Assembly: GCA_900316435.1 (NCBI GenBank)
Contig: ONCY01000039.1
Coordinates: 1 to 33,688 of the forward strand
Source of the DNA: an uncultured Eubacteriales bacterium
GTDB lineage: Bacteria; Bacillota; Clostridia; Oscillospirales; Acutalibacteraceae
Direction of reading: 5' to 3'
DNA: 33,688 bases
Shown: in pieces, positions 4,564 to 10,133 of the stretch
Numbering within the stretch: position 1 is the stretch's first letter
Layout of the letters: each line of letters starts with the position of its first letter
The notes under the pieces: model-generated
What the model saw: the letters and a program-made list of their open reading frames with translations, nothing else
What the model was told of the DNA's origin: nothing
The model's database searches: none
Position numbers and translations under genes: made by a program

Positions 4564-6300
4564 ATGGCTTTAGACGGAATATTTTTACGACATATTAAAA
4601 ACGAAATAGAAAAAGAGGCGCTAGTAGCGCGGGTCAACCAGATTTACCAGCCCAACCGCGACGAGCTTGTGCTTGTTTTAAGAAAACGCGACGGCATGAA
4701 AAAGCTTCTGCTCTCGGCACGGGCTAATTCGCCGCGCGTTAATTTCTGCGTAAACACACCCGAAAACCCGGCTCAGCCGCCAATGTTCTGTATGCTTTTG
4801 CGCAAGCGTCTGGGCGGCAGCAAGCTTGTCGGCGTGCGTCAACTTGGCTGCGACCGCGTGCTGTTTCTCGATTTTGAGTGCATTAACGAGCTGGGCGACC
4901 TGGAAACCCTGACCGTCGTCTGCGAAATCATGGGTATGTACAGCAACATAATTGTAATTAACCGCGACACTGGCGTTATAATCGACGCGCTAAAGCGAGT
5001 GGACTTAACCGTAAGCAGCCGCCGCTTTGTGCTGCCGAATATCCGCTATGAGCTGCCCGACGCTCAGGAAAAACTTAATATTCTTGAATCTTCACCCGAA
5101 GAAATCGCACTTGCGGCGCAAAAGCTTCCGAGCGAAATGCCGCTGCCAAAGGCGCTTATGAGCGTTATTCAGGGTATATCGCCCATTGTGGCACGCGAGC
5201 TTGAGTTCAGAGTCGGCGAGGGCGCGACCAACCGCTTGCAGGGTGATTATTACTCAAAGCTTATTGAGGTGCTGACCGATTTCAAATCAAAAGCCGAAAG
5301 CTGCGAGGGCACTCCCTGCATAGTCTACCGTGAGGACGGCAGACCGATGGACTTCTCATTTATGCCTATAATGCAGTACGGAAGCTATGCGGATGTAAAG
5401 CAGACCGAAGGTTATTCCGCGACGGTCGACGAATTTTACGAGGAGCGCGACGCGCGCGAGAGAATGCGCGTTAAATCCCACAGCCTTAACAAGCTGCTTA
5501 GCAATCTGATTGATCGCACAGCTCGCAAAATAAACAAGCAGCGCACAGAGCTTGCTCAGTGCGGCAACCGCGAGCAGCTCAGGATTTACGGCGATTTGCT
5601 GCATGCCAACCTCTACCGCATTGAGCGCGGTGCTGCCGAAGTTGAGGTCGAAAACTTCTACGACGAGAACAATGCGATTGTAAAAATCAAACTTAACCCC
5701 GCGATTTCGCCTGCCGCAAACGCCCAGAAGTACTACAAGGATTACCAAAAGGCTAAAACCGCCGAAACGGTATTAACCGAGCAGATAGAAAAAAGCAAAG
5801 ATGAGCTTTCGTATCTTGAATCCGTAGCCGACAGCCTCAGCCGCGCAGAAACCGAGCGCGAGCTCAGCCAAATCCGCGAGGAGCTGACCGAGCAGGGCTA
5901 TCTTCGCCGTCCTAAAGGCAAGCAGCCAAAGCTGTCGCAGCTTCCGCCGAAGGAGTACACCTCCTCGGACGGCTTTACGATTCTTGTGGGCAGAAACAAC
6001 CGCCAAAACGACAAGCTCACCCTTAAAACCGCCGCAAAAACCGATGTATGGCTGCACACCAAGGACATTCACGGCTCGCATGTAATAATCCGCTGCGACG
6101 GCAAGCCCGCAACCGACACCGCGATTATTGAGGCGGCACGCCTGGCAGCATATCACAGCAAGGCAAGGGAAAGCACCAACGTTCCCGTAGACTACACTAT
6201 GGTAAAAAACGTAAGCAAGCCCGCGGGCGCGAAACCCGGAATGGTGATTTACGTTAAGAATAAAACGGTGTATGTTGATCCTTCAATTAATATAAAATAA
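4564..6300 (+). CDS. rqcH: Ribosome quality-control factor RqcH (NFACT family)
   Basis: This 578-residue protein is the bacterial counterpart of eukaryotic Rqc2/NEMF. It binds obstructed 50S subunits carrying peptidyl-tRNA and directs C-terminal alanine tailing. The domain order is NFACT-N (about 1-200), a helix-hairpin segment, a long coiled coil (about 300-430) and NFACT-R (about 455-560, with VWLHTKDIHGSHVII). The functional pair D97-R98 and the EIMG motif at 121-124 fall at the positions expected from the family. Older annotation calls such proteins fibronectin-binding (FbpA). The ATG at 4564 follows AGAGGAAAC. The gene ends convergently with the ubiquitin-dockerin gene, and the two share a hairpin terminator. 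Confidence 0.95.
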   Translation: MALDGIFLRHIKNEIEKEALVARVNQIYQPNRDELVLVLRKRDGMKKLLLSARANSPRVNFCVNTPENPAQPPMFCMLLRKRLGGSKLVGVRQLGCDRVLFLDFECINELGDLETLTVVCEIMGMYSNIIVINRDTGVIIDALKRVDLTVSSRRFVLPNIRYELPDAQEKLNILESSPEEIALAAQKLPSEMPLPKALMSVIQGISPIVARELEFRVGEGATNRLQGDYYSKLIEVLTDFKSKAESCEGTPCIVYREDGRPMDFSFMPIMQYGSYADVKQTEGYSATVDEFYEERDARERMRVKSHSLNKLLSNLIDRTARKINKQRTELAQCGNREQLRIYGDLLHANLYRIERGAAEVEVENFYDENNAIVKIKLNPAISPAANAQKYYKDYQKAKTAETVLTEQIEKSKDELSYLESVADSLSRAETERELSQIREELTEQGYLRRPKGKQPKLSQLPPKEYTSSDGFTILVGRNNRQNDKLTLKTAAKTDVWLHTKDIHGSHVIIRCDGKPATDTAIIEAARLAAYHSKARESTNVPVDYTMVKNVSKPAGAKPGMVIYVKNKTVYVDPSINIK

Positions 6301-6350
6301 AAAAGCAACGGACAGAAAGGTTCGCCAATCGGCACCCTTCTGTCCGTATT
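6298..6350. terminator. Bidirectional terminator between rqcH and the ubiquitin-dockerin gene
   Basis: ACGGACAGAA(A)GG at 6308-6320 pairs with CCTTCTGTCCGT at 6336-6347. A T-rich tract follows on the plus strand, and a six-T run follows on the minus strand. It ends both convergent units. Confidence 0.85.
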
Positions 6351-6353
6351 TTA

Positions 6354-6863
6354 TTAAGCCTCAGCTATATATCTTTGTATATTCAACACGTCGCGAATAT
6401 CAAGCTTGCCGTCGTTATTCGCGTCAGCTCGCTCCAGTCCGCTCTCTGAAATAACCGGCGAGCCGTCCTCTCTGAGAAATTCGGCAAAATACCGCTGCAA
6501 AAGCGTGATATCGTCGATCGTCACCTGTCCGTCGCCGTTGACGTCACCTTGGCGCAGCCTGAGCACCAAGTGCAGCGTACTCTCCTTTTGAATATTGTAG
6601 TCCGCAAGGGTGCGTCCGTCCTCAAGCTGCTTGCCCGCAAAAATCAGGCGCTGCTGATCGGGCGGGATTCCCTCTTTTCCCTGGATTTTTTGCTTGATGT
6701 TTTCAATGGTATCATTTGATTCAACCTCAAGCGTCACGGTTTTGCCCGTCAGAGTCCGCACAAAAATCTGCATTGCGGACACCTGAAATACAGACACGGC
6801 AATCAAACCGACCGCCATGCTGAGTGTGAGAAAAATTCCAACAAGTCTGCGAGTACGTTTCAT
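6354..6863 (-). CDS. Secreted ubiquitin-dockerin fusion protein
   Basis: This 169-residue protein has three parts. Residues 1-30 are a signal peptide (basic MKRTRR, hydrophobic core, VSA cleavage site). Residues 31-106 are a complete ubiquitin. Residues 107-169 are a type I dockerin with two calcium-binding repeats ([12 protein letters not shown] at 107-118, [12 protein letters not shown] at 147-158) and their F-helices. The ubiquitin differs from the human protein at nine positions (K6R, I13V, P19S, S20N, V26I, A28Q, D32G, S57A, G75Q), which is 67/76 identity. It keeps K11, K27, K29, K33, K48, K63 and the L8/I44/V70 surface patch. The usual C-terminal GG is QG, fused straight into the dockerin. 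A perfect Shine-Dalgarno, TAAGGAGG (6878-6871), lies 7 nt before the ATG. The gene starts 27 bp after gatB and appears to be the last gene of the gatCAB operon. It is probably exported and held on a cohesin scaffold. The function is unknown. Confidence 0.95.
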
Positions 6864-6890
6864 GCCGTGCCCTCCTTAGATTTTAATTTT

Positions 6891-8303
6891 TTAGCCGATA
6901 AGCTCCTTTATTTTAGCCTCGGCAGCCATCGCGTCCGCCTTTCCGCGGCTGTTTTTCATTACGTTGCCGACAAGCGCCTTAATCGCCTTTTCCTTGCCGT
7001 TTTTGAAGTCCTCAACAGCCTTGGGGTTGTCCTCAACAGCCGCCTTACAAAGCTCCAAAAGCGCGTTTTCGTCAATTCCGCCCATGTCGCTCTCGCTTAT
7101 GAACTCAAGCGCGCCCTTGCCGCTGTCAAGCATTTTTTCAAGCGTTGACTTGGCAAGATTGTTGCGGATTTTGCCGCTGTCAAGCAGCTTTACAAGCTCG
7201 TTGAGCTGTTCGGGCGAGGTCGCTACGTCAAAGATTTCCTTGTCTGCCTCGGTTTCAACTCTGCGGAAAATCTGGCCGATAATAAAGTTGCTTACGGTCT
7301 TGGGCGACTTAACGCCGTCGATAGCCTTGTCAAAATACTCGCTGATATTGCGATACTTTGTAAGCAGAGCCGCGTCCTTTTCAGGTATGTCGTAATCGTC
7401 GACATAGCGCTCGAGCTTATCGGCGGGCAGCTCGGGCATCTCAGCCTTAAGAGCCTCTACCTCATCGCGCAGAATATTGATCGTTACCAAGTCGGGGTCG
7501 CGGAAGTAGCGGTAATCGTGAGCGTCCTCTTTGCTGCGCATTGAGGAAGTTGTGCCGCTAGCGTCGTCAAAGCGCAGGGTCTCCTGAACCACCTTGCCGC
7601 CGCTTTCAATCAAATCGACCTGGCGCTCGTACTCGTATTCCATAGCGCGGGCGATGTTGGTGATTGAGTTCATGTTCTTGATTTCGGTACGCGTACCGAA
7701 CGCCTCAGTGCCCTCGGGGCGAACCGAGATATTAACGTCGCAGCGCATAGAGCCCTCCTGCATTTTGCAGTCGGAGATTCCGACCCAGCGCATTACCTGC
7801 TGCAGCTTTTCAACATATTCCTTAGCCTCGTCAATTGAGCGTATGTCGGGCTCGGAAACGATTTCAATAAGCGGAACGCCGCCGCGGTTGTAGTCGACGT
7901 AGGTGTCGCCGTGCTGATGGATAAGCTTTCCTGCGTCCTCCTCGATGTGGATGTGGTGGAGGCGGATCTTTCTGCCGTTTGAAAGCTCGATATAGCCGCC
8001 GATAATCAGCGGAGCGTAAAGCTGGCTTATCTGATAAGCCTTAGCCAAATCGGGATAGCAGTAGTTTTTTCTGTCCATTTTTGCGACCTCGGCGATTTTG
8101 CCGTGAACCGCAAGCCCTGCTTTGATTGCGAAGCGCACTACCTCGCGGTTGAGCACGGGCAGCGTACCCGGCAGGCCGATACATACAGGGCAGCAGTGGG
8201 TATTGGGCTCGCCGCCGAACTGAGTGGTGCAGCCGCAGAAAATCTTTGTCTTTGTAGATAACTCGATATGGGTCTCAAAACCCGAAACTAATTCGTATTT
8301 CAC
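6891..8303 (-). CDS. gatB: Aspartyl/glutamyl-tRNA amidotransferase subunit B
   Basis: GatB (470 residues) phosphorylates and transamidates Glu-tRNA-Gln or Asp-tRNA-Asn within GatCAB. The N-terminal cradle shows the family signatures ETHIELSTKTKIFCGC, the zinc-type cysteines in FCGC...CCPVC, and the conserved block DRKNYCYPDLAKAYQISQ. The C-terminal helical and YqeY-like tail ends in IKELIG. Translation starts at a GTG (8303-8301) that overlaps the gatA stop as GTGA, implying coupling. The length is normal and the frame is intact, unlike gatA. The ubiquitin-dockerin gene follows after 27 bp with no terminator. Confidence 0.97.
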   Translation of the reverse strand: MKYELVSGFETHIELSTKTKIFCGCTTQFGGEPNTHCCPVCIGLPGTLPVLNREVVRFAIKAGLAVHGKIAEVAKMDRKNYCYPDLAKAYQISQLYAPLIIGGYIELSNGRKIRLHHIHIEEDAGKLIHQHGDTYVDYNRGGVPLIEIVSEPDIRSIDEAKEYVEKLQQVMRWVGISDCKMQEGSMRCDVNISVRPEGTEAFGTRTEIKNMNSITNIARAMEYEYERQVDLIESGGKVVQETLRFDDASGTTSSMRSKEDAHDYRYFRDPDLVTINILRDEVEALKAEMPELPADKLERYVDDYDIPEKDAALLTKYRNISEYFDKAIDGVKSPKTVSNFIIGQIFRRVETEADKEIFDVATSPEQLNELVKLLDSGKIRNNLAKSTLEKMLDSGKGALEFISESDMGGIDENALLELCKAAVEDNPKAVEDFKNGKEKAIKALVGNVMKNSRGKADAMAAEAKIKELIG

Positions 8304-9717
8304 AGCTTAACACCCCACTTTGTATCAATGAATTTTTCGGGAGCCGCCTGCTGGTACTTGTAAGCGGCATTGAGGATCTGAGCCTCGCCGAAGCTTCTGC
8401 CGATAAGCTGCATACCTATGGGCATACCCTTTTGGTTAAAGCCGCAGGGGATCGACACGCCCGGAAGCCCAGCAATGTTTACGGGGACGGTGCAGATGTC
8501 GGTAAGATATGTTTCGATAGGGTCAGATGTTGCGTGTCCCTTTTCAAACGCTGTCATAGGAACCGTAGGAGCAAGTATAACGTCGCAGTTTTCAAACGCG
8601 TCGTTAAACGCCTTTATAATCGTTCCGCGCAGGTCGGTAGCCTTTTTGTAGTAAGCGTCGTAGTAGCCTGCCGAAAGCACATAGGTTCCGAGCAATATCC
8701 TGCGCTTCACCTCCTCGCCGAAGCCCTCGCTGCGGGTACGGCAGATCATGTCGTGTGTGCCGGTGTAATGCTCGGTTTTATAGCCGTAGCGGATACCGTC
8801 GTAACGTCCGAGGTTAGAAGATGCCTCGGCGCAGGCGATGATATAGTAAACGGGCAGAGCGAATTTAAGGATCGGCAAGTCAAAATAGACGATCTCGGCA
8901 CCTAAAGATTCATAAACCTTTGCCGCCTCAAGTACGGCTTCCTTAACGTCGTCACGCACACCGTCAAGGTATTCGCGCGCGATGCCGTCTCGCCGCCCTT
9001 TGCACCAAGGCAGGTTGAGTCGCGCTTATCGGGCTTTGAAATAGCGTCGAACACAATTGAAGCGTCCTCAACGCTCTTTGTGATGGGGCCTATCTGGTCG
9101 AGCGAGCTTGCGTAGGCAATCAGGCCGTAACGCGACACAGCGCCGTAGGTGGGCTTTAGTCCGACAACGCCGCAGAATGAAGCGGGCTGACGGATAGAGC
9201 CGCCCGTATCCGAGCCTAAGCCGTAAGCCGCTATATTGCCGCCCACAGCACTTGCAACGCCGCCCGAGCTACCGCCCGCGACGTGATTGATGTCAAAGGG
9301 GTTCATAGCGCCGCCGAAGTAAGAGTTCTCACACGATGAGCCCATTGCGAACTCGTCCATGTTGGTTTTGCCGAGCATAACAGCGTTCTGCTCTTTAAGA
9401 AGTTCCCAGACCGTAGCGTCGTAAATCGGCTTGTAGCCGGTGAGAATCTTTGAGCAGCAGGTGGTTTCGATGCCCTTGGTGGACATGTTGTCCTTGAGCG
9501 TCATGGGCACGCCCTCAAGCATGCCTATCTCCTGCCCCACGGCGATTTTTTTATCGACCGCTTCGGCAGCTATAAGCGCCTCGTCGGGTGTTACGCAGAC
9601 ATAAGCGTTGAGCTCGCCGTTTGATTTTTCGATTTCCTCAAGATAGCTTTTTGTCAGCTCCGCGCAGGAAACCTGCTTAGCCGTAAGCATATCGTGTATT
9701 TTAGCAATATATCCCAT
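8300..9717 (-). pseudogene. gatA: Glutamyl-tRNA amidotransferase subunit A, frameshifted
   Basis: GatA is the amidase that releases ammonia from glutamine for GatB. The upstream part (9717 to about 8987) holds the amidase core with the Ser-Ser-Lys triad region (DNMSTKG, AGGSSGG, GSDTGGSIRQP). The downstream part, from about 8986, continues in another frame with GIAREYLDG VRDDVKEAV and runs to the stop at 8302-8300. Between DSTCLGAKGGE and GIAREYL roughly a dozen residues normal for the family are absent, so a deletion of about 38-40 bp (not a multiple of three) explains the break. Read together, the parts give about 470 residues against the usual 485. I place the start at the ATG at 9717 (AGGTG upstream). 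A GTG at 9729 overlapping gatC is the alternative. The enzyme is normally essential, so an assembly error is a serious possibility. Confidence 0.88.
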
Positions 9718-9725
9718 AGCGCACC

Positions 9726-10004
9726 TCACTCCCTGTTCCTGACTAAAAAGTGGTCTTCCGCCTGTTCGGGCGCGTTTTTAAGTATTTCCGATGAGGGATA
9801 TGACGGAATGACCTCATCCTCGCGGAACACGTTTGACAGATTGTTGATGTTGTCAAAGCCCTCGGCGCTTGTCGGCGCGTTATTTATCGCGTCAGCAAAG
9901 TCGATGATTTCCTGCATAGACTTTGTAAGCCCGTCAAGCTCCTCCTCGGGAACAAACAGTTTTGAAAGCAGCGCAATGTTTTCTACGTCTTCTTTTGTTA
10001 CCAT
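9726..10004 (-). CDS. gatC: Aspartyl/glutamyl-tRNA amidotransferase subunit C
   Basis: This 92-residue GatC wraps around GatA and stabilises the GatCAB complex. The start MVTKEDVENIALLSKL and the central EEELDGLTKSMQEIIDF helix are typical. A conserved acidic tail region (VFREDEVIPS) follows. AAGGTG at 10016-10011 precedes the ATG. It is the first gene of the gatC-gatA-gatB-ubiquitin/dockerin unit, and a consensus-like promoter lies 43 bp upstream of its start. Confidence 0.95.
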   Translation of the reverse strand: MVTKEDVENIALLSKLFVPEEELDGLTKSMQEIIDFADAINNAPTSAEGFDNINNLSNVFREDEVIPSYPSSEILKNAPEQAEDHFLVRNRE

Positions 10005-10046: not shown

Positions 10047-10075
10047 ATTATACACTATTTTGGAAAAGGTTTCAA
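10047..10075 (-). promoter_or_regulatory. Promoter of the gatCAB operon
   Basis: TTGAAA (10075-10070), a 17-bp spacer and TATAAT (10052-10047). This is the only convincing promoter between the upstream terminator and the ubiquitin-dockerin gene, so it probably drives all four genes. Confidence 0.8.
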
Positions 10076-10093
10076 TAGAAAAATTGAAGATGA

Positions 10094-10133
10094 AAAAATA
10101 TCCCTATAGCCTGAATTTGTCAGGCTATAGGGA
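10094..10133 (-). terminator. Terminator downstream of the sigma-G-like gene
   Basis: A perfect 14-bp stem, TCCCTATAGCCTGA (10101-10114) with TCAGGCTATAGGGA (10120-10133), is followed on the minus strand by ATATTTTTTC. It insulates gatC from the upstream sigma gene. Confidence 0.9.

Follow-up and report, generated by a model that had tools for sequence, protein, structure and literature searches.

A bacterial gene joins a predicted export leader, a near-eukaryotic ubiquitin and a cellulosome-type dockerin in one reading frame, and its ubiquitin has lost the conjugation diglycine. The gene lies in what we call the window, the whole stretch of 33,688 nucleotides analyzed here, from an assembly of an uncultured Eubacteriales bacterium. 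It keeps its place in close relatives, its ubiquitin is under strong purifying selection, and the same head occurs on different modules in other bacteria. We propose, with a probability of roughly 0.4, that the product is a tethered, nonconjugable mimic of ubiquitin directed at eukaryotes, of which grazing protozoa are the probable targets. The leader would export the protein, with predicted cleavage directly before ubiquitin Met1; the dockerin would hang the nonconjugable ubiquitin on a cell-surface cohesin; and the displayed ubiquitin would act as a decoy or ligand for eukaryotic ubiquitin-binding proteins, most likely those of engulfing protozoa. If this is true, ubiquitin serves bacteria extracellularly, as a decoy or a signal open to all. 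Ubiquitin is a textbook eukaryotic protein, and here it forms a cross-phylum bacterial set with predicted export signals, kept near-eukaryotic by selection.

Architecture of the window gene and its possible tether

The open reading frame (P0001) encodes 169 residues at 6354-6863 on the minus strand, exactly where the initial annotation had placed it, and translation and Pfam searches recovered the leader, ubiquitin and two-repeat dockerin described there. Residues 1 to 30 (6774-6863, minus strand) form a hydrophobic leader, a predicted Sec signal peptide, which ends in VSA (the −3/−1 residues) and abuts ubiquitin Met1 with no gap. Residues 31 to 106 align without gaps to ubiquitin positions 1 to 76 (6546-6773, minus strand; PF00240, 109 bits, E = 1e-31, profile positions 1-72 of 72). 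Identity to the vertebrate sequence (cut from P0007) is 67/76 (88%), reproducing the count first given against human ubiquitin. The differences are K6R, I13V, P19S, S20N, V26I, A28Q, D32G, S57A and G75Q, and six of seven lysines are retained. The gene had been credited with a full 76-residue ubiquitin; all 76 positions do align, but the tail reads RLRQG (R74-Q75-G76) rather than RLRGG, with Q-G in place of the diglycine (6546-6551, minus strand). The diglycine is used in ubiquitin conjugation, and because it has been lost, the window ubiquitin should not be conjugable. The first dockerin loop follows directly, and the whole reading frame is free of cysteine.

The type I dockerin (Pfam Dockerin_1, 50.3 bits, E = 2.8e-13) occupies residues 106 to 166 (6366-6548, minus strand). 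Both of its loops, at 6510-6545 and 6390-6425 on the minus strand, read DxNxDGxxxxxD, which we take to be the calcium-loop motif of type I dockerins, so the two-repeat type I assignment stands. In a structure model built on a 14-sequence alignment, which we set aside, pLDDT was 71 to 88 at residues 31 to 90 (ubiquitin) and 41 to 53 in the dockerin.

The surroundings of the gene are bacterial. The Shine-Dalgarno sequence noted earlier, AAGGAGGG, lies upstream of the ATG at 6870-6877 (minus strand), and 27 bp before the ATG is a gatB-like gene (6891-8303, minus strand). An NFACT/RqcH-like gene (4564-6300, plus strand) converges on the reading frame, and between the two convergent genes is a terminator-like inverted repeat (6308-6347; 14-nt arms, 12-nt spacer), a similar repeat also being found 3′ of the gene in L035. 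The labels gatA-like, gatB-like, gatC-like and NFACT/RqcH-like are presumptive. The operon claimed at the outset is plausible from the short gap behind a same-strand gene, but it is spacing that suggests it, and the nearest upstream minus-strand promoter-like matches lie at 10047-10123, before the gatC-like gene. Judged by its neighbors, the window copy is probably chromosomal. The gatA-like gene consists of two overlapping open reading frames (8300-8959 and 8902-9729; region 8300-9729), which we read as a frameshift because the matching parts are in frame in L046; it is perhaps an assembly error. A further frame, truncated at the window edge (positions 2-970), has a predicted leader, and its product resembles a repeat-bearing surface protein.

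What could hold the dockerin? The window's genome has one ubiquitin gene and 34 dockerin matches, 33 of them over the cut-off. The cohesin search suggested by the initial annotation yielded a 745-residue protein (C101) with two sound cohesins (45.4 bits) and a dockerin of its own. Another candidate, C156, is borderline (24.3 and 21.3 bits in two scans, cut-off 24.1), and a membrane-anchored cohesin on C58 (21 bits) was dropped, having no match in hmmscan. By these matches, the window dockerin would bind C101-type cohesins in a complex on the cell, so the dockerin tether proposed earlier, like the exported ubiquitin mimic, is supported as a prediction from sequence. UQ_con and UCH had no match in the window's genome or in the control genomes. 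Two ThiF-family matches over the cut-off lie in frames of 241 and 260 residues, presumably the size of bacterial ThiF/MoeB proteins.

Relatives in bacterial genomes, predicted phages and a plasmid

Six contigs, including that of the window, together supply the 20 sequences of the P0001 cluster, and the full architecture of leader, ubiquitin and dockerin recurs in seven further proteins (86-88% identical over residues 100 to 169). Six loci among the best 80 of 204 fetched from GTDB genomes (L035 to L040) encode short proteins with a leader, a ubiquitin and a dockerin-like end. In L035 and L046 the ubiquitin gene lies between the same gatB-like and NFACT-like genes as in the window; in L036 the NFACT-like gene adjoins it, and the upstream neighbor differs from the window's. 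Because the nearest relatives of the gene are in RUG records, which we take to be rumen assemblies, the bacterium likely comes from a ruminant gut. The L046 copy at the same locus (L046:10001-10400) lacks 110 bp relative to that of the window and has a frameshift within the ubiquitin; it is either a broken allele or an assembly collapse. Genes for a leader and a ubiquitin also occur in the named strains Ruminococcus albus 7, R. albus 8, KH2T6 and Cohnella phaseoli and in the complete genome IMCC26134.

The search proposed earlier for signal peptide, ubiquitin and dockerin together thus found further cases, but the dockerin fusion proved to be one variant of a wider leader-bearing set. A scan of GTDB genomes gave 204 coding stretches; we kept the best 80 and, with the window, had 81 loci. 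Inclusion required an ungapped ubiquitin with at least 50/76 identities, which 78 loci had (L046, frameshifted, and L097 and L114, partial, were dropped), and removal of three redundant loci left 75. By a hydrophobicity cut that we chose ourselves (9-mer mean of at least 1.8; 2.0 for the 99-locus set), 68 of the 75 nonredundant loci carry a hydrophobic leader. Small, signal-peptidase-like −3/−1 residues stand exactly before Met1 in 52 of these 68, and 12 of the remaining 16 have a short linker between leader and ubiquitin. RGG is retained in 8 of the 68, and identity to vertebrate ubiquitin across the set is 58 to 71 of 76. For the 65 unique leader-bearing ubiquitins, mean identity is 0.43 over residues 73 to 76 and 0.88 over residues 1 to 72, the latter an upper bound for the wider set because retrieval favored window-like sequences. 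The vertebrate residue is kept at positions 72 to 76 with frequencies of 0.94, 0.52, 0.58, 0.43 and 0.20.

To what is the ubiquitin joined? Pfam was run on 73 of 99 proteins, leaving out L115 to L135 (21 likely duplicates), L068, L081, L096, L099 and L112; the 99-locus set includes genomes that entered twice, from two collections, and the leader counts above therefore come from the 75 nonredundant loci. It found Dockerin_1 in 15, Autotransporter in 8, SLH in 5 and Por_Secre_tail in 3; more than half had none of these four, and further modules included MBG, GLUG and LRR, among others. Fusions to an autotransporter were found in Methylotenera, Hydrogenophilales and Akkermansiaceae genomes, to SLH in Cohnella phaseoli and another Bacillales, and to IPTL-CTERM in L088 (Brevundimonas), and a Fibrobacter ubiquitin protein has a weak T9SS-type tail (23.6 bits, cut-off 27). 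In NCBIfam scans of 14 proteins, the ubiquitin part matched rad23 alone, far below the cut-off.

The 73 loci with at least 18 residues before Met1, a count unfiltered for hydrophobicity, comprise 48 Bacillota, 9 Pseudomonadota, 5 Verrucomicrobiota, 2 each of Actinomycetota, Lentisphaerota and Fibrobacterota, 1 Bacteroidota, 1 Methanobacteriota (a MAG, doubtful) and 3 unassigned. Title patterns told the habitat for 38 of the best 80 of 204 loci: 35 ruminant, 2 other gut or feces and, among the remaining 43, one title that names a pond. PF00240 matches were present in 33/161 genomes of the window's genus (13/81 high-quality), 20/398 drawn from the family (15/287), 5/394 from the order (3/314) and 0/14 control genomes. 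The first figures count the window's own genome, and some of the matches are diverged ubiquitin-like domains, many inside long proteins. Diverged domains in long proteins of the same genus or family were seen at L136 to L141, L143, L150, L152 and L154. Across 21 diverged matches, a few of which may be non-kin, residues 41 to 72 are better kept (0.57) than residues 1 to 40 (0.38), as is also usual for eukaryotic ubiquitin-like domains. Another locus from the same family (L157, 3210 bp, genome G252) holds four tandem short open reading frames with double-glycine leaders, LSEEELELVIGG, each followed by a diverged ubiquitin-like domain; three match PF00240 and the fourth was assigned by eye. A C39-peptidase protein is encoded elsewhere in that genome, and the tandem frames may represent a second, bacteriocin-like export route for ubiquitin-like proteins.

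The head is also found on mobile elements. Five of eight IMG/VR loci encode a leader, a ubiquitin and an anchor, and the other three a ubiquitin without a leader. On predicted phage contigs, L173 to L175 carry ubiquitin with IPTL-CTERM (L173:2376-2765), near terminase, portal and major head genes in L173 and near a terminase gene in L174. L173 and L174 share a 2.7-kb stretch at 99.7% identity that includes the ubiquitin gene and diverge beyond it, and the terminases downstream of the shared stretch have different best PHROGs; a phage moron would leave such a shared-then-parting cassette. L179 and L180 encode ubiquitin with an autotransporter (63.5 bits). The L179 gene (L179:9471-11656), which includes a leader, has head genes on one side and a tape measure gene on the other and is flanked by 187-nt direct repeats that are 84% alike. 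The 50,697 INPHARED phage records gave no match. The mobilizable plasmid pRUMAL01 of R. albus 7 (NC_014824.1; L181:3998-4738) encodes a leader and ubiquitin in WP_013483628.1, annotated as "ubiquitin family protein," near genes for a dockerin protein and a phosphatidylinositol-phospholipase-C-domain protein and transposase-type genes.

Selection on the ubiquitin and the question of a donor

We estimated dN and dS by NG86. For the window compared with L036, where one flank is common to both, ubiquitin residues 1 to 72 gave a dS of 1.73 and a dN of 0.037. For the same pair, dN was 0.36 in the dockerin, where dS was saturated, 0.79 over 19 aligned codons of the leader and 0.12 in the NFACT-like neighbor at a dS of 1.17. 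Within the reading frame, the ubiquitin is about ten times more constrained than the dockerin, with synonymous sites near saturation. This combination of low dN and near-saturated dS indicates that the ubiquitin sequence hardly changed over a span in which synonymous positions were extensively replaced. For the pair of window and L035, dN was 0.024 for the ubiquitin, 0.080 for the tail and dockerin, 0.008 for the gatB-like gene and 0.044 for the NFACT-like gene, so at least one housekeeping gene, the gatB-like one, changes more slowly than the ubiquitin. Wherever dS was finite (55 pairs, 11 loci), ubiquitin dN/dS was at most 0.081.

Contrary to our expectation, the positions we took to form the I44 binding face were no better conserved than the exposed positions as a whole (weighted majority 0.86 versus 0.855; permutation P = 0.47), and exposed positions of helix 1 drift (0.61). 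The constraint is spread across the ubiquitin surface, not focused on the commonest reader site.

At least three of R6, V13, I26 and Q28 are present in 23/75 bacterial loci (from the window and the best 80 of 204) and in 0/461 eukaryotic or metagenomic repeats among the matches listed. Given this pattern among the sequences compared, and a gene location shared by close relatives, repeated new acquisitions would explain the near-constancy of the ubiquitin poorly. The 461 repeats (copies counted) come from the best 120 of each of two lists, a polyubiquitin-favoring comparison. S19 and A57 had been taken to hint at a plant or gut-protist donor; both residues do occur in Acanthamoeba repeats, the closest among the matches listed (67/72), but the tree points to no donor. 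It was built from 74 bacterial rows, an archaeal MAG being the source of one, and 103 of 132 eukaryotic or metagenomic rows, since repeats of a single protein bore one name and replaced each other. It has 137 of 174 inner branches open and 18 changes between bacterial and eukaryotic groups, and its 27-row all-bacterial group (Bacillota, Verrucomicrobiota and Lentisphaerota) has an SH-aLRT of only 91. A specific donor was thus not told by closest match or tree.

Readings of the exported ubiquitin and known systems

Strong selection on the ubiquitin head suggests that it has to engage a partner able to read ubiquitin. Were a stable fold all that mattered, the sequence would have drifted as other ubiquitin-like domains have, whereas the eukaryotic surface is largely retained, which points to a eukaryotic target; the conjugation tail would have been let go because a decoy on display has no use for it. 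Ubiquitin readers are known from eukaryotes, and protozoa that graze on bacteria live in both the rumen and fresh water, which is why we favor eukaryotes, and grazers in particular. Carriage by predicted phages and a plasmid is in keeping with a surface trait that alters external interactions. By analogy, BfUbb of Bacteroides fragilis would count on both sides: in the accessible parts of the two papers, it inhibits ubiquitination in vitro (PMC3352274), which favors a eukaryotic target, and acts on bacteria (PMC5705921), which does not. Several results count against a decoy: the null result for the I44 face (P = 0.47), a ubiquitin dN above that of the gatB-like gene (0.024 versus 0.008, window and L035), the patchiness of the family (PF00240 in 33/161 genus genomes), the one frameshifted copy and the bias of retrieval toward window-like sequences. 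The link with grazers is tentative too, as titles give a habitat for 38 of the 80 loci, 37 of them gut or feces and one a pond. Topology is a further difficulty, as readers are cytosolic and a phagosome-borne tethered ubiquitin faces the lumen, so that a route to the target is missing. A broader version, which we hold to be doubtful, takes the display of ubiquitin to be widespread among bacteria and mobile: an exported, tail-stripped head would be set on any lineage's anchor and would serve phages as a lysogenic-conversion gene, shielding their bacterial hosts from protozoal grazers through the grazers' ubiquitin readers.

Could the ubiquitin instead be a weapon against competing bacteria, as BfUbb is, kept near the cell by the dockerin? 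This is the main rival reading, possible if unlikely. BfUbb, which has a leader and a ubiquitin without diglycine, is the closest tested protein; in the accessible part of PMC5705921, it inhibits 13/40 B. fragilis strains and bovine ubiquitin is inactive in the same assay. Its killing would therefore depend on departures from the eukaryotic sequence, but the leader-bearing set stays at 58 to 71 of 76, retrieval having favored such sequences. The tandem ubiquitin-like frames in G252, a member of the same family with a C39 peptidase encoded elsewhere, do have a bacteriocin-type layout. Anchoring modules, however, suit display and not release, and the strong purifying selection on the window ubiquitin argues against the diversification that is usual for antagonistic toxins.

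We consider it quite unlikely that the ubiquitin is a structural or adhesive cap, either a compact protease-resistant tip or an adhesin for plant, mucus or biofilm polymers. Its occurrence on proteins with SLH, MBG, GLUG, LRR or SdrD modules, the presence of diverged ubiquitin-like domains within long proteins in this genus and the lack of extra constraint on the I44 face would all suit such a role, but a stable cap needs no near-identity to eukaryotic ubiquitin over residues 1 to 72 at near-saturated synonymous sites. A mimic aimed at the vertebrate host, acting for example on extracellular-ubiquitin signaling or immune tolerance, would agree with the ruminant titles of 35 of the best 80 of 204 loci, but it is very improbable given the same leader and head in Methylotenera, Hydrogenophilales, Cohnella and Verrucomicrobia genomes, which to our knowledge are not known as vertebrate symbionts. 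An artifact of chimeric assembly, a doubt raised at the outset, or of eukaryotic contamination is hardly credible: the source assembly does have 161 contigs and a contamination of 6.83%, and some leaderless loci of the best 80 of 204 (e.g., L068, L099 and L112) may be eukaryotic contamination, but the architecture recurs in other assemblies, with the same flanking genes in relatives, and the leader and ubiquitin recur in the named strains and complete genome listed above.

The kinship of idea with BfUbb suggested by the initial annotation is supported by a leader (predicted in the window protein) directly before Met1 and a missing diglycine in both proteins, and both belong to gut bacteria, likely so for the window (accessible parts of PMC3352274 and PMC5705921). 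As described there, BfUbb is a free 76-residue protein, 63% identical to human ubiquitin, with a C-terminal cysteine. The window protein, at 88% (67/76) and fused to a dockerin, shares the predicted leader before Met1 and the lack of diglycine, but neither the free 76-residue form nor the cysteine. Unlike BfUbb, it has kin joined to autotransporter, SLH and other modules and kin encoded by a plasmid and by predicted phages. In the accessible part of PMC5705921, cyst nematodes secrete a ubiquitin with a 12-residue extension, which is removed inside the plant; it has a secretion signal, as is predicted for the window protein, but it is eukaryotic, bears that extension and is not surface-tethered. 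The accessible part of PMC3482391 deals with peptidases related to ubiquitin and not with its export. The full-text matches listed, most subscription papers lying outside their scope, included no paper on the architecture or the family, which agrees with the earlier judgment that the architecture is undescribed; the window fusion represents a family that itself appears to be undescribed.

The plasmid-encoded WP_013483628.1 of R. albus 7 (pRUMAL01) resembles the window protein in its leader and ubiquitin head, its Ruminococcus origin and a nearby dockerin protein gene, but its C-terminal part has no Pfam match and no dockerin; no published function for it was found in the literature searched. 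R. albus 7, R. albus 8 and KH2T6 are test cases for the role of extracellular bacterial ubiquitin, a question that BfUbb leaves open. The word ubiquitin does not occur in the main text of three cellulosome papers (PMC2930009, PMC4081043 and PMC11557425). The window protein is like ruminococcal cellulosomal dockerin proteins in its leader, its C-terminal two-repeat type I dockerin and the cohesins in its genome, and unlike them in that it carries a ubiquitin and no enzyme or carbohydrate-binding module. It would thus add a nonenzyme passenger to cellulosome-type complexes.
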